Shown: positions 14,995 to 33,552 of the stretch, in pieces
Layout of the letters: every line of letters begins with the position of its first letter
Numbering within the stretch: position 1 is the stretch's first letter
From: Methanosarcina barkeri MS
GTDB lineage: Archaea > Halobacteriota > Methanosarcinia > Methanosarcinales > Methanosarcinaceae
Assembly (NCBI RefSeq): GCF_000970025.1
Contig: NZ_CP009528.1
Span: forward strand, 2,591,168 to 2,655,167
Reading direction: 5' to 3'
DNA: 64,000 nt
The notes under the pieces: model-generated
The model's input: the letters and a program-made list of their open reading frames with translations, nothing else
Databases searched by the model: none
What the model was told of the DNA's origin: nothing
Program-made: the position numbers and the translations under genes

Positions 14995-15500
14995 TTTCTT
15001 ACCTCTTCACTTAATTCTGAGGCAAGGCTACCTAAACTTTATAACTAATTAAAGCAAATAACCATGCCCTTTGGGCATGAGGCGTTCAGTCTTATCTTCC
15101 AGTTTGCCTGAGCACCTCACACATAATAAAAAAATGTAAATTATACTATATAAAAATTTTTGATTTTTTCATAAATATAATAGTTATTTGCCTTTAATTA
15201 AGATACGAATCATTACAAACGTGTTATTTTGTCCCATCCGAACAGGTTGATGGTCAATTTGTATCTGATTGATATTATATTCCACATTCCGTAGTATTTT
15301 TTGAAAATCAATATTTTTCATGATAGCGTTTTTGGAACAGATGCAAATAAGATCACTCCAAATAGATTAGATTCTTGTAGAACAAAACCAGCGATCTTAT
15401 GATATCATGCTGAACTTGCCTATCTTGTATGGAGTAGGCGAGAATCAAAAATATGAAATGCAATAGAGGCAAAAAAATTCAACATGATATTTCAAAAAAT
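14995..15500. other. intergenic region with hairpin and a solitary IS1-like end
   Basis: On the minus strand this is the leader of the phospholipase-like gene. A perfect hairpin catgccc-ttt-gggcatg (15063-15079) lies about 70 bases before the start, flanked by gaggcaaggc (near 15020) and its partial complement gtttgcctgagc (near 15102). From 15248 to 15280 there is one copy of the IS1-like terminal sequence tgatggtcaatttgtatctg with no transposase beside it, a solitary relic. No gene is seen in the remainder. Confidence 0.5.
15248..15280. repeat. solitary terminal sequence of the IS1-like element
   Basis: tgatggtcaatttgtatctg and the next bases match the ends of the two IS1-like relics at 4463 and 11301. 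There is no transposase sequence within 200 bp on either side, so this is a footprint of a third, almost fully deleted copy. Confidence 0.65.
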
Positions 15501-16226
15501 TTAAGATTGCTCTTTCTTTTTCTTCTCAGGCGCCACAGGCTCGGTTAAAAAGAATCCAAACGATGCGAAATCTTTGACATCCATTTTGTGAGACATCTCA
15601 CCTGAAGAGATAGAAGGAGTGATGAACCGGAAAAACTCACTGGCAAACTGCTTGTAGCTGAACCCCTCTGCCTCGATCACCAGTTTCCATTTATTTTCCA
15701 TTGACAGGATACCCATGAAGGAGATCATAAGGTACATTGAGGTAAGAAATGGATCGAGATCTGCACGGATTGTACCATCATCGATACCCTCCTGGATCGC
15801 ATCCCGCAGGATAAGACGGCAGGTTCCATATCCCTTTCCAATCTCTGCGGTACACGGGTTCTCTTTGGAAAAACGCTCAGAACCGTAAAAATGGATCATT
15901 CGAAGATAATCGGGGTATTCCTGTGCATATTGGTAATAGGCCTGACCCATCAGGGCTACCTTGATAATTCCCGGTACCTGTTTTTCCATGCATTCCATGT
16001 ATTTTTCTTTAAGGATCTGGATACCGCGAAGTACAATGGTTGCGAAAAGTGTCTCCTTATTTTTAAAATATAGATAAATGGTAGCCTTATTCAGTTCAAC
16101 CTCGCGGGCGATGTCTTCCATAGAAACATCTTCATAACTTCGAGAAAAAAAGAGACGCTCGGCTGCATCGATAATCTCTGTTTTTCGCTGTTCCTTTTCT
16201 CGTTGCCTTCTATCGGCGATTCCCAT
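15501..16226 (-). CDS. TetR/AcrR-family transcriptional regulator
   Basis: A 241-residue regulator. Residues 15-61 are a TetR DNA-binding domain (IIDAAERLFFSRSYEDVSMEDIA, then the recognition helix LNKATIYLYFKNKETLF). The longer C-terminal part is the ligand-binding and dimer region and identifies no ligand. It is downstream of and on the same strand as the flavodoxin-ferredoxin gene, with 220 bp of repeats between them. The natural reading is that it represses the nearby gene in response to a small molecule. TetR proteins of this kind are mainly bacterial, so the pair may have been acquired. Confidence 0.9.
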   Translation of the reverse strand: MGIADRRQREKEQRKTEIIDAAERLFFSRSYEDVSMEDIAREVELNKATIYLYFKNKETLFATIVLRGIQILKEKYMECMEKQVPGIIKVALMGQAYYQYAQEYPDYLRMIHFYGSERFSKENPCTAEIGKGYGTCRLILRDAIQEGIDDGTIRADLDPFLTSMYLMISFMGILSMENKWKLVIEAEGFSYKQFASEFFRFITPSISSGEMSHKMDVKDFASFGFFLTEPVAPEKKKKEQS

Positions 16227-16244
16227 AGTTCCACTCCACCTGAC

Positions 16245-16305
16245 TTATATTTATAAATTTATATTTATATTTATATTTATATTTATATTTATATTTAAAT
16301 TATGG
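16245..16305. repeat. (ATATTT)n microsatellite upstream of the TetR gene
   Basis: Seven perfect 6-bp units (16261-16302) with ragged edges lie 20-80 bases upstream of the TetR start. On the minus strand it reads AAATAT, so it overlaps where a TATA-type promoter would be. Slippage here would alter promoter spacing. Frames through this tract are low-complexity and not genes. Confidence 0.7.
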
Positions 16306-16363
16306 TTGTTAGTTATATGATTTAAGGAATGAATGTATTCTAATTTTCCACTTTTATCAGTGG

Positions 16364-16455
16364 GATATATTCGAAATATATTCGAGATGTATTCGAGATA
16401 TATTCGAGATATATTTGAGATATATTCTGGATATATTCGGAATATATTCATTCGA
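16364..16455. repeat. tandem gatatattcga repeats between TetR and flavodoxin genes
   Basis: About seven degenerate 12-13 bp copies of gatatattcgag run from 16364 into the 3' end of the flavodoxin-ferredoxin gene (stop near 16448). Each contains the partly palindromic atatattcgaatatat. They could be operator-like binding sites or simply a slipped satellite. A frame reading RIYPEYISN through the block is a by-product. Confidence 0.65.
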
Positions 16456-17251
16456 TAAAACATTCAGGCTCTTTTCGCTGGCTATGTAGCGTATGGAGAC
16501 GCACTGATGCGTCTTTAACCAGCCCGGGTTTCATCGATCTGGCACTTTGCGGGCAGTTTTTGATACACGCACAGCAGGTAATGCATTTTTCTATATCAAT
16601 CAAACGGGAATTTTCTGCATCAACAGCACCAACGGGACATACCTCTGCACAGGTTCCGCACTGTGAACACTCGTCACTGACCGCGATAAAATCAACAGTC
16701 CACAATTTTGTAACTCCTCCATAAGGATAATTGCCAGGCACATGCACATCAGAAACCTGAGAGATTGATGAAACAGATTGTAGTTTTTCACGTATTTTCT
16801 GTCCAAATAGTTCTGCATGGTGTAAATCATCTTTATCGGGACGTCCCTCTGCTGTTGGTGTCTCGGAATTTGAGAATGAGTGTTCTCCGATATATGCTGC
16901 ACAGGCAATGGGAATGCACCCACATTTCATTACAATATTTTTTAGTTCGAGCAGTGCATCCTCATATGCTCGATTGCCATAAACCACAACACAAACAGTC
17001 GGTGTATTATGAGCCTGAATTGTATTCAGCCATTCATTTAATAATGCCGGCACTCTCCCCATATATACGGGAACTCCAACAACAAGCAATTCATCTTCCG
17101 ATATCTGCAACGGTTGTTTTCTTGCATCCGGTCTGGTAATATCAATTAATTCCACGGTGCCTTGATTAATACCATGCGCAATGCCCTTAACAACCGCTTT
17201 TGTTGTTCCGGTAGGTGAAAAATAAACTAATTTCGCAGATTCCATTTTCAT
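16448..17251 (-). CDS. EFR1-type flavodoxin / 2[4Fe-4S] ferredoxin fusion
   Basis: A 267-residue electron carrier. Residues 1-155 form a flavodoxin domain with the FMN phosphate loop SPTGTTKA (12-19). Residues about 193-235 carry two [4Fe-4S] sites, CSQCGTCAEVCP and CITCCACIKNCP. The family is found in anaerobes; partners are usually unknown reductive reactions. A second ATG (17245) is possible. Three 18-bp repeats lie 65-115 bp upstream (17316-17366), and a TetR gene follows. The C-terminal tail runs into the repeat tract at 16364-16455, so the last few residues may have been altered by repeat growth. Confidence 0.88.
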   Translation of the reverse strand: MKMESAKLVYFSPTGTTKAVVKGIAHGINQGTVELIDITRPDARKQPLQISEDELLVVGVPVYMGRVPALLNEWLNTIQAHNTPTVCVVVYGNRAYEDALLELKNIVMKCGCIPIACAAYIGEHSFSNSETPTAEGRPDKDDLHHAELFGQKIREKLQSVSSISQVSDVHVPGNYPYGGVTKLWTVDFIAVSDECSQCGTCAEVCPVGAVDAENSRLIDIEKCITCCACIKNCPQSARSMKPGLVKDASVRLHTLHSQRKEPECFIE

Positions 17252-17315
17252 TTCATTTTCTCCATCAGTTGTGTAGGATTCTGCCCGAAGGTAGTCTCAC
17301 TAGAACATTGTAACC

Positions 17316-17366
17316 AATGGTTATATTATAACTCATGGTTGTATTATAACTTTTGGTTATTAACTT
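17316..17366 (-). promoter_or_regulatory. direct-repeat operator/promoter candidate of the flavodoxin-ferredoxin gene
   Basis: Two 18-bp direct repeats, aatggttatattataact (17316-17333) and catggttgtattataact (17334-17351), and a partial third (17352-17366). Each has the dyad ggttatattataac. Their position 65-115 bases upstream of the start, and the TetR gene downstream, make them plausible operators. Inference only. Confidence 0.45.
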
Positions 17367-17580
17367 ACCATCAGTTAGATATCAGATTACACTTAATAAA
17401 AATATTAAATACCTGACGAAGGCTTTGGTACTAATTTTACATAAATCAGAAATCGAATGGAATAGTAGAAATTTCTCGCTTAAATTCTAATTTTGGGGAT
17501 TTCTATACAGCCTTCTTTACTTTAACTAATTCTTAATATGAGCTTATCTTGGAAATCAGAGCTCTATTAACTCCCCTCAA

Positions 17581-17613
17581 CGCCCAAATGCCCACTATGT
17601 GGGCATTTGGGCG
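17581..17613. other. perfect 15-bp inverted repeat with 3-base loop
   Basis: cgcccaaatgcccac (17581-17595), tat, gtgggcatttgggcg (17599-17613). It is much richer in G+C than its surroundings and perfect over 15 bp. There is no T-run after it on either strand. It lies in 730 bp without genes between two divergently transcribed genes. It may be a protein-binding site, an RNA hairpin or the footprint of a mobile element. Confidence 0.7.
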
Positions 17614-17979
17614 GTCACTGACAAAAAAATAGAAGCGACAGCGATAGTAGTGAAAAAATTAGAATAAGAATTAATATGTTTCTCAGACCCGACGGATGTG
17701 TTCGATTTGATAAAAAATTTTGAAAAAATTGAAATAAGCTCATTACCTGTTTGCAAAAAGAAGCAAAAGACAAAAGGATTAAGGAATTAGTCAAGAATCG
17801 ATTTTTATAATTAGCTCTATTTACAATAATGCATAGGTTTCGTAGTAATGCCCGTAATATTTGAAAAATAAAGAAGTTTAATGTTAATTAAAAAGTTCAT
17901 TTTTGACAGAACTTATCATTATTTCCATTTTGATCTCAAACAAACTTATTTACTCTAGAAATAAACATAATGACATAAT

Positions 17980-20322
17980 ATGACCGAAAAAGATGAGAAG
18001 TCAATTAATTCTAATGAAAAAATATCATCTTCTGTTTTTAAAGTAGAAGATAAAATTCTTTGTTCATCAAAATTAGATGATGATATATATACAGCACTCA
18101 GCTCTCTTTCAAGTTTGCAAGCATCCTTAAATAATATGAGTAAAAACTTAAATTCTGAATTAGTCACTGGTTTCTTATCAGTGTCCACCAATCCACTTAA
18201 AGGTCTAAAAGCATCCCTAAATATTCCGAGTCAAATAGCCAAGCCTCAAAATTTAAGGTTATATTCTCCTCATCCAAATGTGAGTTCTTCGCAAAAAACT
18301 GACAAAAAGATTGATTTAGAAGATATTTTAAAAATCTCAAGAAAACATAAAAAAATATTCCTCTTCGATTTTTTCGATCTTAATCAACAGGAAGCAATAA
18401 ACGATTTTTCTAGATCTATTAGTGGAAAGGACTTAGTTCATATAAATGATAACAAATCTAAAGAAGTTATGCAGTTGTCTATAAATCATATTCTGCTGAA
18501 TACAGATTTGCCGAAGAACGTTTCTTCCATCTGTGTTCATTTTGGATATTTTTTCGGGTATCATTTTTCTTTGATATTCGAATGCGATTTGAATGTTGAA
18601 GATCTTTATGAGAAATTTTCGAAGAATGATACTGATAGTCTAATTGAATGCTTTCAACTATTTGAAGATCTGCAAGTTCAAATAGAAGAATCACTACCTG
18701 AACAGTTTCATGGTTTCTTTTATAAAAATGAGTTGAGATTTGAAAAACCTAATTTAAAATTACTTTCTATATATGTTTATGATATTCATGACTATAAATT
18801 CATTTTTGATATTGAATATAATGAAAAATCGATGGCACCTATAGATCGTCCCACATTGAAACAAAAAGTCGAATTTTTTGTAAACTTCTCTTTAAATCAG
18901 GAAGATAAATATAGCGAAAAAGTAGAGTTTAATGCATTGTCTTTACTTAGAATTGAGCCTAAAAAATTATTTACTTTGATAGGTGATAAATTAATATGTT
19001 CCAAATCGAATAATTATTTTGAAGACTTCTTAGGACAACTTCCATCAAATTTTGTTATTTTAGAGTTTAAAGACGATGAACTTTTAAATTTTATTTTCCA
19101 ATTAGTTCCTTTATATTATTTACTTACTATATTTGAAAAAGTACTAATCGATTTATCAAAAGTTAAAATTCCAGAGATTAAAATATCTGAGCTTCCTCAT
19201 TTAGATGAAGAAATATTAAAAGTAAAAAAGGCGGAAGTATTAAAAACAAAAATAATATTGGACGAAATTGTCAGAGACTTATTTCTATATTTACGCGCAT
19301 TTGACTATTTCAGTTCTAATGATTTTAGATTTTCTAATGAAGTAAGTCGAGATCGTATTTCGTTTAAAGGTCAAAAGTGGGATAATGATTCAATTTCAAA
19401 ATTTCTTAGTGATCTCATTATTTATAAAAAGAAAGAAATAGTTAATAAACAGACTCACTTAGAAAAACGAATTTCTGAGATCGATGAATTAATTCAAAAT
19501 GAGTTAAGTATAATAAAAAATAAACCTAAAGTCAACAGTCTTCTAAATGAAATTGAAACCGAATTAATTCTACGAATAAAAAGATGGGAAGGATTGATTC
19601 CACAGGATAAAATTGAAAATTGGTTATTAAATTTCGATACTAAAGAAGAAAGATTAATTGCTTTAAAATTATTGGATAAGTTGACATATGTTTCTAACAA
19701 AAACCTTAAACAACTTATAGATTCTTCCAATAATTTATTACATTCTAAAATCAATTTGGATACGTCTCAAAATTGCTTTTTCTCATGTGTTGGAGATATA
19801 ACAAGCGGATCCACTCATTTAGCTAAACATTTTCAGGAAGAAAGTAGAATTAAAGAAAAATTGTTCAAAAAAACAGAAGAAATTGAATTATTAATAGAAA
19901 AAAATGGTAAAATAGATAAATTGATTTTGATAGATGATTTTATAGGTTCAGGTAATACTTATATAAAATGGTATAAAAAAAATATTCAATTAATAAAAAA
20001 TTGTTCGGAAGTAATCTTAATCGTTTTAATAGCACTAAAAAAAGGGATCAACAAGATCGAACAAAAAACCAATACAAAAGTACTATGCAAATATATTCTT
20101 GATGAAAGTAATCAAGTAATTGATGGAACCTTATTTGATTGTGAAGAAAGGCAAGAAATTAATAGACTAGTAAATAAATATTCATACTTAATTAACTCAG
20201 ATTTTGTTTATGGCTATGATAATTGTCAGCTTCTTTTAGCGTTTGAAGATAATATTCCAAACAACAGTATTGGGATCTTGTGGTGGTCTACAAACTGGAC
20301 ACCTCTTTTTGAAAGAAAATAA
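17980..20322 (+). CDS. large protein with C-terminal PRTase-CE-like (phosphoribosyltransferase-fold) conflict domain
   Basis: A 780-residue soluble protein in strongly AT-rich DNA. The C-terminal third looks like the phosphoribosyltransferase-like domain of prokaryotic conflict systems. A wHTH-like stretch at about 556-620 (ERLIALKLLDKLTYVSNKNLKQL) is followed by a PRPP-loop-type motif LIDDFIGSGNT (D652, D653 to T660), and the protein ends NNSIGILWWSTNWTPLFERK, a tail I associate with that group. Residues 1-550 are not recognised; around 350-500 they become Lys/Glu-rich and helical. There is no obvious partner: the upstream gene is divergent and the next gene 380 bp away. Codon use is more A/T-rich than in the metabolic genes, which suggests horizontal transfer. 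A defence role is inferred from domain type only. Confidence 0.7.
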   Translation: MTEKDEKSINSNEKISSSVFKVEDKILCSSKLDDDIYTALSSLSSLQASLNNMSKNLNSELVTGFLSVSTNPLKGLKASLNIPSQIAKPQNLRLYSPHPNVSSSQKTDKKIDLEDILKISRKHKKIFLFDFFDLNQQEAINDFSRSISGKDLVHINDNKSKEVMQLSINHILLNTDLPKNVSSICVHFGYFFGYHFSLIFECDLNVEDLYEKFSKNDTDSLIECFQLFEDLQVQIEESLPEQFHGFFYKNELRFEKPNLKLLSIYVYDIHDYKFIFDIEYNEKSMAPIDRPTLKQKVEFFVNFSLNQEDKYSEKVEFNALSLLRIEPKKLFTLIGDKLICSKSNNYFEDFLGQLPSNFVILEFKDDELLNFIFQLVPLYYLLTIFEKVLIDLSKVKIPEIKISELPHLDEEILKVKKAEVLKTKIILDEIVRDLFLYLRAFDYFSSNDFRFSNEVSRDRISFKGQKWDNDSISKFLSDLIIYKKKEIVNKQTHLEKRISEIDELIQNELSIIKNKPKVNSLLNEIETELILRIKRWEGLIPQDKIENWLLNFDTKEERLIALKLLDKLTYVSNKNLKQLIDSSNNLLHSKINLDTSQNCFFSCVGDITSGSTHLAKHFQEESRIKEKLFKKTEEIELLIEKNGKIDKLILIDDFIGSGNTYIKWYKKNIQLIKNCSEVILIVLIALKKGINKIEQKTNTKVLCKYILDESNQVIDGTLFDCEERQEINRLVNKYSYLINSDFVYGYDNCQLLLAFEDNIPNNSIGILWWSTNWTPLFERK

Positions 20323-20700
20323 TTGTCTCACTGATATATGTAATGTGAAAAGAACAGATATAATATAACGGAAATAAGTATTAATTATTCAACATCAGTA
20401 AACATTATTAAAAACGACAAATAGATCTCTTAGTATTTTATTACATTTACCCTATATCAAGCGAAGCAATAAGCTTATTCATATATATTTTGGACTAATC
20501 ATGTTTTCAGACGTTTAGAGTAAAAAGTGCGATTTTAGCTTTTGGTAGTCAAATTAATTATAAAAATGAATTTCCATTTTTAGGATTTCATAATTAGTGT
20601 TGCAGTTTAGCTTTTCCGAAAGATTTCTAGTCTGCCTGGGTCGTGAAACTAAAAAAGAAATATATCGTAATGTAGATTGTATTAGGACGAAGGCGTAAAT
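20323..20700. other. intergenic region upstream of the CAT-like gene
   Basis: AT-rich spacer. I see no gene, tRNA or strong inverted repeat. An aggacgaagg sequence just before 20701 may contain the ribosome site of the acetyltransferase gene. Confidence 0.4.
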
Positions 20701-21330
20701 ATGGGAAACAGATACCAAAAAATAGACCTTGAAACATGGAAAAGAAAAGATTATTGCCAAATATACAGGAATGCAGTCCAGCCTCAATATTGTGTGAGTT
20801 TTGAACTTGATGTGACGAATTTTAAAAAGCGCGTTAAAGAAAATAACTTGTCATTTACGCTGGCATTTATATTTGCTGTTACGAAATGCGCAAATGAAAC
20901 AGAGGAATTTCGGTATCGTTTTCTTGATGGCGAAGTTGTGTTATATGAGTCCATTGATACTTCATTTACATATCTGGATAAAGAAACAGAGTTATTTAAG
21001 GTAGTATATGTTCCCATGCAGGACACGATTGAGAAGTTTGTACAATTGGCAACCGTAACGGCAGAAAATCAAAAAGAACATTTTACAGGACCTGTGGAAG
21101 ACGATGTATATCAATTCTCTGCCCTGCCGTGGATAACGTTTACGCATATTTCGCACACGGATTTCGGAAACAGGGAAAAAGCGCAGCCCATATTTGATTG
21201 GGGAAAATATCAGGAAAAAGAAGGCAAACTTATGATGCCGTTTGCAGTTCAGGTTCATCACGCATTTGTTGATGGTATTCATATCGGCAAACTTGCGGAT
21301 AAGCTGCAGAGATACCTGAATGAAGTGTAG
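20701..21330 (+). CDS. chloramphenicol acetyltransferase-like protein (CAT family)
   Basis: A 209-residue protein of the trimeric CAT fold, which moves an acetyl group from acetyl-CoA to a hydroxyl. The catalytic motif HHAFVDG is at residues 186-192 and length is close to the 210-220 of classical CAT. The N-terminus (YQKIDLETWKRKDYCQIY) and PWITFTHI fit the xenobiotic acetyltransferase (CatA) group. Most archaeal members have not been tested and may act on other substrates; resistance should not be assumed. It lies next to the conflict-type gene in an apparently acquired stretch. Start ATG 20701. Confidence 0.87.
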   Translation: MGNRYQKIDLETWKRKDYCQIYRNAVQPQYCVSFELDVTNFKKRVKENNLSFTLAFIFAVTKCANETEEFRYRFLDGEVVLYESIDTSFTYLDKETELFKVVYVPMQDTIEKFVQLATVTAENQKEHFTGPVEDDVYQFSALPWITFTHISHTDFGNREKAQPIFDWGKYQEKEGKLMMPFAVQVHHAFVDGIHIGKLADKLQRYLNEV

Positions 21331-21394
21331 ATTAATCAGTAGCTCAGTGGATTAATAAGTAGTTTAGTAGATTGATAAGTAGTTCACTAATTTT
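21331..21394. repeat. three 20-bp tandem repeats after the CAT-like gene
   Basis: Degenerate units read aatcagtagctcagtggatt, aataagtagtttagtagatt and gataagtagttcactaattt. They begin at the stop codon and end at the MITE at 21395. No function is evident. Confidence 0.5.
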
Positions 21395-21492
21395 GGCTCT
21401 TCGCCGTTCCCTATGGATAAGATGATTTTCAATTCAAGACCGCGGTTTTTATGAGGATATTATGAGGATATCCACACAAAACAACGAAGAGC
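21395..21492. repeat. 98-bp MITE-like inverted repeat (ggctcttcg family), copy 1
   Basis: ggctcttcgccgttccctat (21395 on) is matched in inverted orientation by the end caacgaagagcc (21481-21492) and the bases before it, with scattered mismatches over about 25 bp. It is followed by ctaattttttag, so on the plus strand it could also end transcription after the CAT-like gene. A longer relative is at 35754-35971. Confidence 0.6.
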
Positions 21493-21672
21493 CCTAATTT
21501 TTTAGCCCTTTCTTAACTTCTTCATTAAGAGAAGGTTTGCAATTTTTTCCTTTCGCTAATACCGTAATATAAAGAGGACACCTAAACTTTCCAAATAGCA
21601 TATTATGCACATGAATAAAATACTTTTAAATATAATATATACTTGGCAATTTTAACTATATAAACTATCTCA

Positions 21673-21714
21673 TGAACCCCAATTCATGAACCCCAATTCA
21701 TGAACCCCAATTCT
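21673..21714. repeat. three tandem 14-bp repeats upstream of the first HyuA-like gene
   Basis: The unit catgaaccccaatt is repeated three times without spacers, ending just before tctaaaaaatgaacaggagg and the ribosome site of the next gene. It lies in the expected leader, so copy-number change could affect expression. Confidence 0.7.
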
Positions 21715-21738
21715 AAAAAATGAACAGGAGGCATTTAG

Positions 21739-23661
21739 ATACAATACAGCATGGGTATTGACGCAGGAGGCACCTACACTGATTCGATCATCATTCGGGA
21801 CTCAGATAGCAAAGTGATGGATTCGAACAAGGCGCTTACCACCTATCCTGATCTGCTCACAGGAATTAAAAATTCCATCGACGGGCTGGATGAGAAATAT
21901 TTAAAAGACGTAAAAATGGTTTCGGTCTCAACAACGCTTGCCACAAACACAATCCTTGAAAAAAATGGCTATCCTGTAGGTTTGATCCTTGTAGGAGATT
22001 ATGAAATCCCGGAAAGAAAGGATATTGAATTTTATACTATCGTAAAAGGAGGGCACGACCATCACGGAGCCGAACTGATTTCCCTTGATATGGAAGCTGT
22101 AGAAGCTTTTGTCAGTAAGGTTAAAGATAAAGTTTCAGCCTTTGCAGTCTCTTCCTACTTCAGTATCCGAAACCCTGCTCATGAGCTGGCAGTCAAAGCC
22201 CGCATCCAGGAGCTTACTGGGATGCCTGTGGTCTGTGGGCACGAACTTTCACTTGACCTTGGAGCCTACGAGAGAGGGATTACAGCCTACCTGAATGCTC
22301 AGTTGATTCCTATTGCAAACCAGTTTATTCACTCAATCAGGGAAGAAATCTCCAGGCGAGGAATGGATTCGAGGCTGCTGATGCTCAAATGCGACGGTTC
22401 GGTTGTAGGCATTAACGAAGCCCTGGAAAAACCAATCGAGTCTATCTTTTCGGGACCTGCAGCAAGCCTTGTAGGAGCATCCCATCTTTCAGGGCTTGAG
22501 ACATGTGCAGTTATTGATGTAGGCGGGACAAGTACGGATGTTTCCATACTCGAAAACGGTCTTCCTGAACTCTGTGAGGAAGGCGCTGTAGTCGGAGGCT
22601 GGCAGACAAAGGTAAAAGCTATCCGGATGGAAACCTCAGCAATGGGAGGGGACAGCCATGTCTGGATCAAGAACATGAAAATAAATATCGGTCCAAGGCG
22701 AGTTATCCCACTTTGCGTTGCAGCGGTTAAATACCCTGGTTTTCTTGAAGTCCTGAAAAAAGGAAGAATTCCTGGAGCTATGCACCTTGATGAAAATGTG
22801 CAACCTACCAGGTTTTTTGTAAGGACTGGTATTGAACCCTCAGACCTCGGAAAATTTGAAACAGAACTCTTCGACAGGATAGGAGATTTTCCTGTATCGC
22901 TTAACGATATTTTCTGGGAGACCCAGAAAACGCTTTCTCCGGGTTTACTTGATTCGCTCATAAGAAAACGCCTGATCCAGGCAATAGGTTTTACCCCAAC
23001 CGATGCGCTTCATGTGCTCGGGGAATATACAGCCTGGGATCAAGAAGCCTCAAGGGTAGGAGCAAAACTTCTGGAACGATATACCGAAACCGACCATATC
23101 GAGATCTGCAAACAGATAAAACAGGACGTTGCAAGGAATATGGCCTTAAATCTAATATCTTTTATCCAGAAGGATGTGCCGTCTTCCGAAATCGAGAAAA
23201 TCCTGCTTTCCGACAGGTTTACACAGTTCAGGATGAAAATCCCTGTGGTGCTGATAGGAGGCCCTGTAGTCGCATACACCAGAGAGTTGAAACAAATTCT
23301 CAATGCCGACATCATAATCCCGGAGCATGCTGAAGTAGGAAATGCGGTCGGAGCCGTCGTAGGCAAGGGCATAAAAAGAATTGAAATCCTGATCAAAAGC
23401 GCCTACTCAAAAGATAAGAAAAGGCTTGTTCTTCTATTTTCACCTCAGGGCAGGGAAACCTTTGGAAGCTACCCAGCCGCTCTGGAATACGCCGATGCTC
23501 TGGGAAGAAAACTCATCATGGAATACATGACCGAAGCCGGGCTCGACAAAGGGCAGATCCAGATCGAGGTCAGTAGAAAAGATATCTCTCTTAGTGAAGC
23601 AGGGGCAGTACCCCTAGAGACAAAGCTTGTTTTTGTTGGAGTTGGAATGCCAAAAGTTTGA
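21739..23661 (+). CDS. HyuA-type hydantoinase/oxoprolinase-family protein, paralogue 1
   Basis: A protein of about 640 residues with the ASKHA ATPase fold of N-methylhydantoinase A/5-oxoprolinase: phosphate-1 motif GIDAGGTYTD at the N-terminus and phosphate-2 motif DVGGTSTDVS near residue 250, with GGDSHVW between core motifs. The family uses ATP to open cyclic amides or to activate carboxylation substrates; its substrate here is unknown and no HyuB partner is in the window. The start is unusual. GGAGG (21727-21731) sits 7 bases before an in-frame ATA (21739) but 19 bases before the first ATG (21751), and the paralogue at 23906 has residues upstream of that Met. I therefore extend to ATA; ATG 21751 is the conservative start. 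Confidence 0.85.
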   Translation: MQYSMGIDAGGTYTDSIIIRDSDSKVMDSNKALTTYPDLLTGIKNSIDGLDEKYLKDVKMVSVSTTLATNTILEKNGYPVGLILVGDYEIPERKDIEFYTIVKGGHDHHGAELISLDMEAVEAFVSKVKDKVSAFAVSSYFSIRNPAHELAVKARIQELTGMPVVCGHELSLDLGAYERGITAYLNAQLIPIANQFIHSIREEISRRGMDSRLLMLKCDGSVVGINEALEKPIESIFSGPAASLVGASHLSGLETCAVIDVGGTSTDVSILENGLPELCEEGAVVGGWQTKVKAIRMETSAMGGDSHVWIKNMKINIGPRRVIPLCVAAVKYPGFLEVLKKGRIPGAMHLDENVQPTRFFVRTGIEPSDLGKFETELFDRIGDFPVSLNDIFWETQKTLSPGLLDSLIRKRLIQAIGFTPTDALHVLGEYTAWDQEASRVGAKLLERYTETDHIEICKQIKQDVARNMALNLISFIQKDVPSSEIEKILLSDRFTQFRMKIPVVLIGGPVVAYTRELKQILNADIIIPEHAEVGNAVGAVVGKGIKRIEILIKSAYSKDKKRLVLLFSPQGRETFGSYPAALEYADALGRKLIMEYMTEAGLDKGQIQIEVSRKDISLSEAGAVPLETKLVFVGVGMPKV

Positions 23662-23905
23662 GTTTCGAAAATCTCCCGGAATATTTATATTTACCCTCAA
23701 TAGTGCAATAATGCAATAATTAATTCAGTGTTTGGTCTTGAGTCTCTCACCAGCTCCTGATGACCAAACAGAATTGGACGTAATGTCCTGATTTTGCTGT
23801 CAGAACATCAGCAAGTAATTAAAAATGGCATAAAAGGAACAGCATTACAAATGGCAAGGAAAGAGTAACGCAAAAACGTTTGAAAATAAAAGTGGAGATA
23901 TAAAA
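23662..23905. other. spacer between the two HyuA-like genes
   Basis: It contains an 8-bp inverted repeat (gtttggtc 23730-23737, gaccaaac 23762-23769) that would fold in the leader of the second gene. The spacing of 244 bp and this structure suggest the paralogues have separate control. No gene is seen. Confidence 0.4.
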
Positions 23906-25975
23906 ATGGAATGTAGTTCAAAAATGGCATATGATCTGGGCATTGATGCAGGTGGAACTTATACTGACTCGGTTTTAATTAGAAAATCGGATGGAAAAGT
24001 TGTATGCTCAAACAAGGCCCTCACAACCTATCCTGACCCTATCAAAGGAATAGAAAAGTCAATTGACGGACTTGACACTGAAAAGCTAAAGCTCGTGACT
24101 GTAGTTTCGGTTTCAACTACTCTTGCCACCAACACTATCCTTGAAGGAACAGGATATCCTGTTGGGCTCATCCTTATCGGAAATTATGATGTTCCTGAAG
24201 ATTCGGGAATTGAGAACTGGATTATGGTAAAGGGAGGACATGACAGTAATGGCGAGGAAGTCGCAGCCCTTGACCTGCCGGCAGTAGAAAAATTCGTACT
24301 TGAAATAAAAGACAGGGTCTCGGCTTTTGCAGTTTCTTCTTACTTCAGCGTGCGAAATCCGGAGCATGAGCTGCGTGTAAAAACCCTGATCCAGGAATTG
24401 ACAGGGCTGCCTGTTGTATGCGGGCATGAACTGGCACAGTCGCTCGGGGCTTACGAAAGGGGAGTTACTGCCTACCTCAATGCCCAACTCCTGCCTGTGG
24501 CAGAGGGCTTCTTAAAAACGATAGTAACTGAGATCGAAAGAAGAGGCCTCAACCCGAGAATTGCCATGCTCCGCTGCGACGGCTCTGTAGTGAGCATGCA
24601 GGAGGCTATGAAAAAACCCATAGAATCGGTCTTTTCAGGTCCCGCAGCAAGTCTCCTTGGGGCTTCCTATCTGTCCGGGCAAGAGACCTGCGCTGTAATT
24701 GACGTTGGAGGAACAAGCACGGACGTCTCCCTGGTCCATAAAGGACTGCCAGACCTCAGTGAGGCAGGAGCAGTTGTGGGTGGCTGGCAAACAAAAGTAA
24801 GGGCGCTGCGTATGGAAACTTCGGCTATGGGCGGAGACAGTCATATCTGGGTTCAGAGCGGCAATATACACATAGGTCCCAGGCGGGTTATTCCTCTCTG
24901 CAGGGCAGCAGTCCTGTACCCCGATTTTATGAACACTCTGAAAAAGCGCTGGATTCCGGACCGGCTCAAGCTGAACGAACATATTCAGGCAACAAAGTTC
25001 TTTATCCGGACCGAGCAGAAACCTGTCAATTTGAACCGGGAGGAAAAAGAGCTCCTTGCCCTTATACGGGACGAGCCGCGTTCCCTCAAAGATATCTACT
25101 GGGACAGAAATATCCTTCCTCCAAAGAGAGTAATGGATTCTTTAATTCAGAAGCGGCTTGTTCAGGCAATAGGTTTTACCCCAACAGATGCCCTGCATGT
25201 GCTTGGTGAATATACTGAATGGAATGCTGAAGCTTCGGAAATTGGAGCTACTCTGCTTGCAAACTTCATAGGGATTGACAGGACTGAGTTCTGTCTAAAT
25301 GTGAAGCGGCTTTTTGCCAGAAACATGGCCCGAGACCTCATTGCTTTTCTAATGGAAGGAGTAGACAGGACCGAAATTGAAAAAATGCTTGATGGCAATT
25401 TCTTCGCTCGTTTTAAAGTAGATATCCCTGTTGTCCTGCTTGGAGGGCCGGTAAGGGCTTATGTGGATGAACTGAAGAAGCTTATAGATGCCGAAGTCTT
25501 TGCTCCTGAATACTCAGAGGTTGGAAATGCCGTCGGAGCTCTTGCAGGAAAAGGGACAAAACGCATTGAGATTACAGTGCGCACGCTTTACAGTGAGTCC
25601 AAGTATGACCTTAAAACAAAAGGGGTCTTTGTGTACACACCTGTAGGAAGGAGGCATTTCATAATACGGAGTGAAGCCCTGGAGTTTGCTGAGGCGTTTG
25701 GAAGAAAGCTGATTCTTGATTATATGGCCGAATCCGGACTTCTCCCTGACCAGGTTACAGTTAATGTACAAAAAAAGGATATAAAAGTCCATGCAGGTGA
25801 AATTCCGATAGAGACAAGATTTATCTTTGAAGGGATTGCAAATTCTAATGTCTATGAAAAAGCTCTTTCTGGACAGGAGAAAAAAGATGAGGACCTTACA
25901 GAACTAACCAGTCAGGTTCATTCGCTGGATTGTAATTCCTGTGGAGAACTCTCTATCTCTGAAAATAATAAGTGA
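23906..25975 (+). CDS. HyuA-type hydantoinase/oxoprolinase-family protein, paralogue 2
   Basis: A 689-residue paralogue of the preceding gene, alike over almost the whole length. It has the phosphate motifs GIDAGGTYTDS and DVGGTSTDVS, the shared METSAMGGDSH, and the shared QAIGFTPTDALHVLGEYT. It is longer at both ends: eight residues precede the homologous Met, and a C-terminal tail of about 45 residues holds CNSCGEL. ATP-dependent hydantoinase/oxoprolinase chemistry is the family expectation; the true substrate is unknown. The duplication in tandem with divergence suggests two related substrates or a hetero-oligomer. No HyuB gene is adjacent. Confidence 0.88.
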   Translation: MECSSKMAYDLGIDAGGTYTDSVLIRKSDGKVVCSNKALTTYPDPIKGIEKSIDGLDTEKLKLVTVVSVSTTLATNTILEGTGYPVGLILIGNYDVPEDSGIENWIMVKGGHDSNGEEVAALDLPAVEKFVLEIKDRVSAFAVSSYFSVRNPEHELRVKTLIQELTGLPVVCGHELAQSLGAYERGVTAYLNAQLLPVAEGFLKTIVTEIERRGLNPRIAMLRCDGSVVSMQEAMKKPIESVFSGPAASLLGASYLSGQETCAVIDVGGTSTDVSLVHKGLPDLSEAGAVVGGWQTKVRALRMETSAMGGDSHIWVQSGNIHIGPRRVIPLCRAAVLYPDFMNTLKKRWIPDRLKLNEHIQATKFFIRTEQKPVNLNREEKELLALIRDEPRSLKDIYWDRNILPPKRVMDSLIQKRLVQAIGFTPTDALHVLGEYTEWNAEASEIGATLLANFIGIDRTEFCLNVKRLFARNMARDLIAFLMEGVDRTEIEKMLDGNFFARFKVDIPVVLLGGPVRAYVDELKKLIDAEVFAPEYSEVGNAVGALAGKGTKRIEITVRTLYSESKYDLKTKGVFVYTPVGRRHFIIRSEALEFAEAFGRKLILDYMAESGLLPDQVTVNVQKKDIKVHAGEIPIETRFIFEGIANSNVYEKALSGQEKKDEDLTELTSQVHSLDCNSCGELSISENNK

Positions 25976-32283: not shown

Positions 32284-33552
32284 TTATGATGAGTATTCTT
32301 TCCCCAAACACTGGTCCAGGGCCTCTATACTGGTGACCATGGCTGCTCGGCCATCTGATATCATACGATTAACGATTGCTGCCGCTTCGCCTGCCATGCA
32401 ATTTTCAATATTTTTGGAAAAACAATCTGTTACAAGCAGAATAGGTTTATTACAACATTCAGACACGATACGTAGATTGTCCACATTTTCCTGCTCAAAT
32501 GGCATTGATGTGAATACAACAAGATCTGCTGTGCCTATACTTTCTTCAAGTAATGAGCGTGAAACATCAGTGATTGGAGAAAAAGGAGGTTCAGCAATAC
32601 AGGGAATACCTAATTGAATTGAAGTAGAATAATCAGCGTCATTCATAGAGAGAATACCTGTTCTGACATCACATTCGGCTGCATGAAGAGCAAACATAAT
32701 CTCAGTGCCAGATCCGCCGCCACAAATAAGATGTACCTTTCGACCACCGTTTTTGATGGGTCTTCTATGATAGATAGGAAGCAGGTACAATTTGCCAGTT
32801 GTTGGATGGGTTTTTATCAGTACATCAAGACCAAAGACAACACGGATATTTTCTTGAGTCATTACCTTGTGTGGGGTTCCAACTGCATATACAGTTCCCT
32901 GGTCCAGCATAATAATCTCATCACAGTATTGAGAAGCAAGATTCAGATCATGGATCACACAGATTACTGTTGAACCCTGGCGTGTCAGGCTTTGTAGAAC
33001 AGATAGGATCTCAATCTGGTGATTTATGTCAAGCTGACTGATAGGTTCATCCAGCAGGAGTAAAGGTGTTTCCTGTGCCAGTGCCCGAGCAATCAAGACA
33101 CGTTGCCATTCACCACCGCTAAGCGTTGAGATACTCCTCCCAGAAAGATGTGAAATGCCAGTCAACGCCATTGCTTTCTGGCATGCTTCTCTGTCATGAG
33201 GCTCAGGAGGACGGAGAAGTTTCTGGTACGGGTAGCGCCCCATCATAACAATATCGTCTACGGAAAAATCAAATGTCCGCATGGACTCCTGAGGTACCAC
33301 GCAAAGCATCTTGGCCAGTTCCTTACGCGAATATTTTTCAATTTCCTCTCCTACAATAAGGATATTGCCTGTTGTCGGATTCAAGGTGCGACTCATGCAA
33401 TGGATGAGTGTACTCTTTCCTGAACCATTAGGGCCAATAATACCGACAAACATGCCCTGACCAGCACTAGCACTTATCTTATGCAGGATCTCCGCAGTGC
33501 CTATCTTAACATCAACATCCGTAACGCTGATCACTGATTCTGTTATGTCCAC
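32284..33552 (-). CDS. btuD: corrinoid ABC transporter ATPase with extra C-terminal domain
   Basis: A 422-residue protein. Residues 1-255 are an ABC ATPase of the BtuD/FecE class: Walker A GPNGSGKST (40-48), Q-loop VPQES, signature LSGGEWQR (144-151), Walker B LLLLDEP (164-170) and the switch H201. Residues 262-422 form a second domain (VHLICGGGSGTEIMFAL and so on) with a Rossmann-like G-rich start; it is not part of a usual BtuD and I do not recognise it, although ABC ATPases with such tails occur next to archaeal corrinoid salvage genes. It pairs with the permease BtuC to import cobinamide or B12. Its start overlaps the btuC stop by 10 bp, so the two are translationally coupled. Confidence 0.9.
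   Translation of the reverse strand: MDITESVISVTDVDVKIGTAEILHKISASAGQGMFVGIIGPNGSGKSTLIHCMSRTLNPTTGNILIVGEEIEKYSRKELAKMLCVVPQESMRTFDFSVDDIVMMGRYPYQKLLRPPEPHDREACQKAMALTGISHLSGRSISTLSGGEWQRVLIARALAQETPLLLLDEPISQLDINHQIEILSVLQSLTRQGSTVICVIHDLNLASQYCDEIIMLDQGTVYAVGTPHKVMTQENIRVVFGLDVLIKTHPTTGKLYLLPIYHRRPIKNGGRKVHLICGGGSGTEIMFALHAAECDVRTGILSMNDADYSTSIQLGIPCIAEPPFSPITDVSRSLLEESIGTADLVVFTSMPFEQENVDNLRIVSECCNKPILLVTDCFSKNIENCMAGEAAAIVNRMISDGRAAMVTSIEALDQCLGKEYSS

Follow-up and report, generated by a model that had tools for sequence, protein, structure and literature searches.

A lone Methanosarcina gene that joins an unrecognised N-terminal region to a PRTase-CE domain, with a possible role in genetic conflict

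The gene at 17980..20322 (+ strand) of the window, by which we mean the whole 64,000-nucleotide stretch of Methanosarcina barkeri MS DNA analyzed here, encodes a 780-aa fusion of an N-terminal orphan region with a PRTase-CE domain. At about even odds (probability roughly 0.5), our analysis suggests that the product is a self-contained conflict protein, probably anti-viral or anti-mobile-element, that was acquired by Methanosarcina and in which a lineage-restricted sensor or regulator would be joined to a PRTase effector. Support comes from matches to PF24390 and to PADLOC type III-A retron models, an intact PRPP loop, Foldseek comparisons, the settings in which relatives are found, and purifying selection on the core of the N-terminal half. 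Further support comes from two loci that have the gene alone in common, its presence in 2 of 31 genomes of the genus, and its location in an acquired segment of low GC content. We found no defence or toxicity data for this protein or its close relatives.

The reading frame runs from an ATG at 17980 to a stop at 20322, exactly as the initial annotation had it, and is matched by a homologue (L005:7926-10184) in addition to its place in the list of open reading frames. The gene is as AT-rich as had been claimed (26.7% GC overall and 20% at third codon positions, with neighbors at 38-46% GC). Residues 545-779 (19612..20316, + strand) match the Pfam family PRTase-CE (PF24390) over the entire profile (positions 1-253; E 2.1e-43; 149.5 bits, where the curated cut-off is 27 bits), and five PADLOC models of retron III-A PRTases also match the C-terminal part of the protein (E 1.9e-39 to 2e-16). 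Profiles of salvage PRTases in Pfam and NCBIfam gave marginal scores only (E 0.01-0.2). The LIDDFIGSGNT motif and the NWTPLFERK end that had been noticed are both present in the C-terminal third. A supposed winged-helix-like segment at residues ~540-590, however, turned out to be the helices with which the PRTase-CE profile begins. The PRPP-binding loop motif of type I PRTases, LILIDDFIGSGNT (residues 648-660; 19921..19959, + strand), is intact, with two acidic residues followed by GSG; D652, D653, G656, S657, and G658 are invariant in an eight-sequence alignment and, together with P760 and R779, are invariant across the prophage and archaeal relatives and kept here.

An AlphaFold model of residues 513-780, built from eight sequences, has a mean pLDDT of 62.7 with a core at 80-91. 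Its leading Foldseek matches in the PDB are HGPRT, UPRT, and OPRT (prob 0.99-1.00; E 2e-5 and up), with TM-scores that are modest, about 0.5 at best, owing to poor modelling of the last 43 residues. The best match in a viral structure library is a phage protein that is itself named PRTase-CE. Structure prediction had been proposed as a check on the fold, and a different fold for this domain gains no backing from it, because the leading matches in the PDB and in the viral library are PRTases. The assignment of the C-terminal third to PRTase-CE, with a predicted PRTase fold, is thus well supported.

Relatives of this domain on plasmids and prophages are commonly encoded by the second gene of a cassette, followed by an ORC-CDC6-like ATPase (confirmed by PF24389 in a Rhizobium locus and assigned by alignment elsewhere) and then by a protein of ~320 aa. 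The first gene varies and may encode a DNA methylase, a dUTPase, a YhcG nuclease, or a SIS/HAD-like protein. We consider this arrangement of variable gene, PRTase-CE, ORC-CDC6-like ATPase, and ~320-aa protein a strong candidate for a multi-gene conflict system. The cassette loci in our set (L039-L044, L062-L066, and L071) are on plasmids, many of them from Klebsiella, and prophages. In archaea, PRTase-CE occurs with a Dcm-like methylase and an ATPase (L009; read from sequence) and with a ParB-like protein and a BglII-type nuclease (L012). At a third archaeal locus (L010:1360-3349), which also includes Hypoth_Ymh, it directly precedes a NADAR gene. The NADAR family is linked to reversing ADP-ribosylation, and this neighbor hints at a modified base or nucleotide as the target of the PRTase. 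Another Methanosarcina (G002) encodes a 1087-aa protein in which PRTase-CE (residues 100-340) is fused to a radical SAM/SPASM region (L061:3289-6552). None of the partner types of these other loci adjoins the window gene. A survey of homologue neighborhoods, suggested at the outset, thus found most PRTase relatives among conflict or restriction genes and not in housekeeping contexts, and this is the main ground on which we call the domain a conflict effector.

The initial annotation described the N-terminus as unrecognised, and the first ~540 residues indeed have no significant match in Pfam, PHROGs, NCBIfam, or PDB sequences. When profiles of the N-terminus were compared with those of the ORC ATPase, the fourth cassette protein, the Rhizobium upstream protein, and two further PRTase-CE fusions, only the first helices of PRTase-CE matched. 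The sole other full-length homologue (L005:7926-10184; 752 aa; 52% identity over its length) is in a second Methanosarcina (Methanosarcina sp. STD2_179, G004); L002, L005, and L007 are one genome, so that independent N-terminal sequences number two only. A third relative, from another family of the same order (G050), shows 55% identity over the last 173 residues and is cut by a contig end. Searching a public genome collection with the N-terminal region returned one locus, on the same contig as G004. We found no N-terminal homologues in the viral contigs, phages, or plasmids searched, none that was convincing in 238 genomes of the class, and none beyond the incomplete copy in 34 genomes of the family of G050. 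A weak match in G041 falls within an ordinary gene and was rejected.

Comparison of the two full copies divides the N-terminal half into parts. Residues 1-103 (17980..18288, + strand) are poorly conserved (36% identity with many gaps; dN 0.83) and probably flexible. The best-conserved part, residues 104-290 (18289..18849, + strand; 61% identity), is a candidate sensor or regulator domain with a low-confidence prediction of alpha/beta secondary structure. A connecting region (residues 291-364; 18850..19071, + strand; 49% identity) leads to residues 365-514 (19072..19521, + strand; 43% identity), for which a low-confidence model predicts long, coiled-coil-like helices. Both predictions come from the full-length AlphaFold model, made from two sequences only; its pLDDT is 37, and for that reason we set it aside for claims about the N-terminal fold. 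A resemblance of the helical region to a CorA-like stalk was considered, has no tool support, and was dropped. The whole protein lacks a strong membrane segment, the best 19-residue hydropathy (1.67) being inside the PRTase domain. Estimates of dN/dS between the full copies (Nei-Gojobori with Jukes-Cantor) are ~0.29 for residues 104-290 and ~0.27 for the PRTase domain, and are rough because dS is high. Residues 104-290 are nevertheless better conserved than the PRTase domain (61% versus 57% identity) and hence under selection; they are a genuine, selected domain rather than read-through. By analogy with the PRTase systems described below, we infer a sensor role for the N-terminus and a defence function for the protein.

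The conservation of residues 104-290 beyond that of the PRTase domain would also fit the reverse division of labor, in which PRTase-CE senses a ligand, such as a nucleotide or alarmone that changes during infection, and switches the activity of an N-terminal effector. PRTase folds can act as nucleotide-binding regulators, and one Foldseek match (5vog) is a hypothetical protein whose structure was solved with ppGpp bound. Against this, the PRTase of the relatives is small, encoded separately, and found next to varied partners, as a common effector would be, PRTases are treated as effectors in the literature, and the N-terminus has no recognisable catalytic motif. We regard this alternative as unlikely and retain the PRTase domain as the probable effector of a conflict protein.

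Several known systems offer comparisons. Type III-A retrons combine a PRTase effector with a winged-helix protein, and the one member that was phage-tested in the study consulted, Bpu1, gave no protection against the panel used (PMC12548924). The C-terminal domain is homologous to their PRTase (PADLOC PRTase_III-A, E 1.9e-39), whereas neither a reverse transcriptase nor a partner protein nor a recognised msr/msd RNA lies near the window gene. In E. coli, a DprA-PRTase pair gives protection against T7 and lambda, and the mode of action of the PRTase in DprA-PRTase systems and retrons is described as unknown (PMC9122126). A review that cites Pu et al. 2025 presents ShosT as both a PRTase and a pyrophosphatase, with a disturbing effect on purine metabolism (PMC12593503). 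The literature describes the PRTases of ShosTA and of the DprA-PRTase system of P2-like phages as toxins or effectors of defence, a role that the PRTase of the window gene may share, yet the window gene lacks a DprA-like neighbor. With the four-gene bacterial cassette of methylase, PRTase-CE, ORC-CDC6-like ATPase (PF24389), and ~320-aa protein it shares a homologous PRTase-CE subunit, but the other three subunits are missing here and the N-terminus is unlike the ATPase or the fourth protein. Within PRTase-CE (PF24390) it is typical in its full profile match, intact motifs, and predicted PRTase fold; however, most members compared are 270-390 aa long and in operons, whereas this protein has ~540 additional N-terminal residues and no operon.

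The gene is the single gene of an approximately 3.0-kb acquired segment of 26% GC (17640..20632, with edges placed to within some tens of bases). Near both edges the GC content drops from 34-36% to 26% and the conserved flanks stop. The left edge carries a perfect inverted repeat of 15 nt (17581..17613), probably the terminator hairpin of the upstream region. Two sister genomes (G002 and G021) have the same flanks with 880-890 bp of unrelated DNA between them. The flanking TetR, flavodoxin-ferredoxin, and CAT genes are conserved across the genus, and the content between them varies. The claimed CAT-like neighbor does belong to the CAT family (PF00302, E 7.5e-42); it is outside the unit, because sister species without the gene conserve it, as they do the flavodoxin/TetR pair upstream. 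The interval from flavodoxin-ferredoxin to CAT (window 17252-20700) is a variable site in Methanosarcina, with genes that differ between species. In G023, G014, G008, G003, and G007 it holds, read from sequence, an acyltransferase-like gene, a DEAD-box helicase, a RelBE-like pair with a pentapeptide-repeat protein, a hydrolase, and a catalase. Sister species carry ordinary-looking genes here, and we therefore describe the site as variable and not as a proven defence island. Farther along the window, positions 21389-21500 hold a dispersed ~110-bp sequence with ends GGCTCTTCG and CGAAGAGCC, found in many copies of roughly 80-92% identity in Methanosarcina genomes; it has a better predicted fold than shuffled versions of itself (z -2.8) and resembles a small inverted-repeat element. 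It is followed at 21751-25975 by two tandem similar genes with the look of the hydantoinase/oxoprolinase family (read from sequence).

That the gene is a lone one, as first proposed, is borne out by the second Methanosarcina, in which the DNA on both sides of the L005 copy has nothing in common with that around the window copy but the gene itself. Given the acquired low-GC segment and the absence of flanks common to the two full copies, we conclude that the gene stands alone. No conserved small partner gene of the toxin-antitoxin type is beside it (the open reading frames in the gaps are short and chance-like), and none of the nearest genes, encoding a flavodoxin-ferredoxin protein, a TetR regulator, and a CAT-family protein, is DprA-like. 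PADLOC revealed no clear defence gene among ten other window proteins; a match to MADS "mad3" at 32284-33552 was rejected as the ATPase of an iron-type ABC transporter. A search of 15000-23000 against Rfam, which may not cover all retron RNAs, gave no msr/msd or other match.

Most PRTase-CE relatives compared here have partners, and the protein could be an effector that needs an unlinked one elsewhere in the genome (a reverse transcriptase, methylase, or antitoxin). The genome does have four reverse-transcriptase-like genes, but all four RVT_1 matches are >1.5 Mb away in contig coordinates and there is none near the gene; the whole genome has no match to the ORC-CDC6-like ATPase (PF24389), and the homologue's locus shares only the gene. 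We therefore consider dependence on a distant partner improbable and favor the self-contained conflict protein.

Within the genus the gene is present in 2 of 31 genomes, and PRTase-CE scores above the cut-off in five of the 247 genomes sampled across the phylum; the distribution of the gene is rare and sporadic. This pattern and the low-GC acquired segment argue against a metabolic salvage phosphoribosyltransferase with a regulatory extension, as do the marginal salvage-profile scores and the presence of relatives in restriction and conflict operons. Such an enzyme would be consistent with the intact PRPP loop and with the non-defence genes that make up the scanned window neighbors, and we judge it quite unlikely. 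A cargo gene without current function, for which its rarity, AT-richness, and lack of an operon might be cited, is most improbable in view of a frame open over 780 codons and purifying selection on both halves (dN/dS ~0.27-0.29).

For the self-contained conflict protein, we propose that residues 104-514 would act as sensor or regulator, replacing the separate partner proteins of other PRTase-CE effectors, and that the N-terminal half would hold the C-terminal effector off until triggered. Once released, the effector would act at its intact PRPP loop on PRPP or a nucleotide, transferring or hydrolyzing phosphoribosyl groups, chemistry that may upset the nucleotide pool so that growth stops. Both the effector role of the PRTase domain and the nucleotide pool as its target are putative, drawn from the comparisons above. 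A bolder version, which we advance tentatively and hold to be somewhat doubtful, is a single-protein archaeal immune system that fuses a sensor domain with a new fold to a PRTase effector, one chain doing the work of several retron III-A or methylase/ORC genes.

We found no paper on PRTase effectors in archaea and no earlier description of the stand-alone architecture of this PRTase-CE member. Its front half is known in full from one other genome, and sensing and acting may be combined in one protein. The finding widens the range of domain architectures seen for PRTase-CE and points to an N-terminal domain still to be named. A single-gene version of a PRTase effector would let trigger and effector be studied in one protein.
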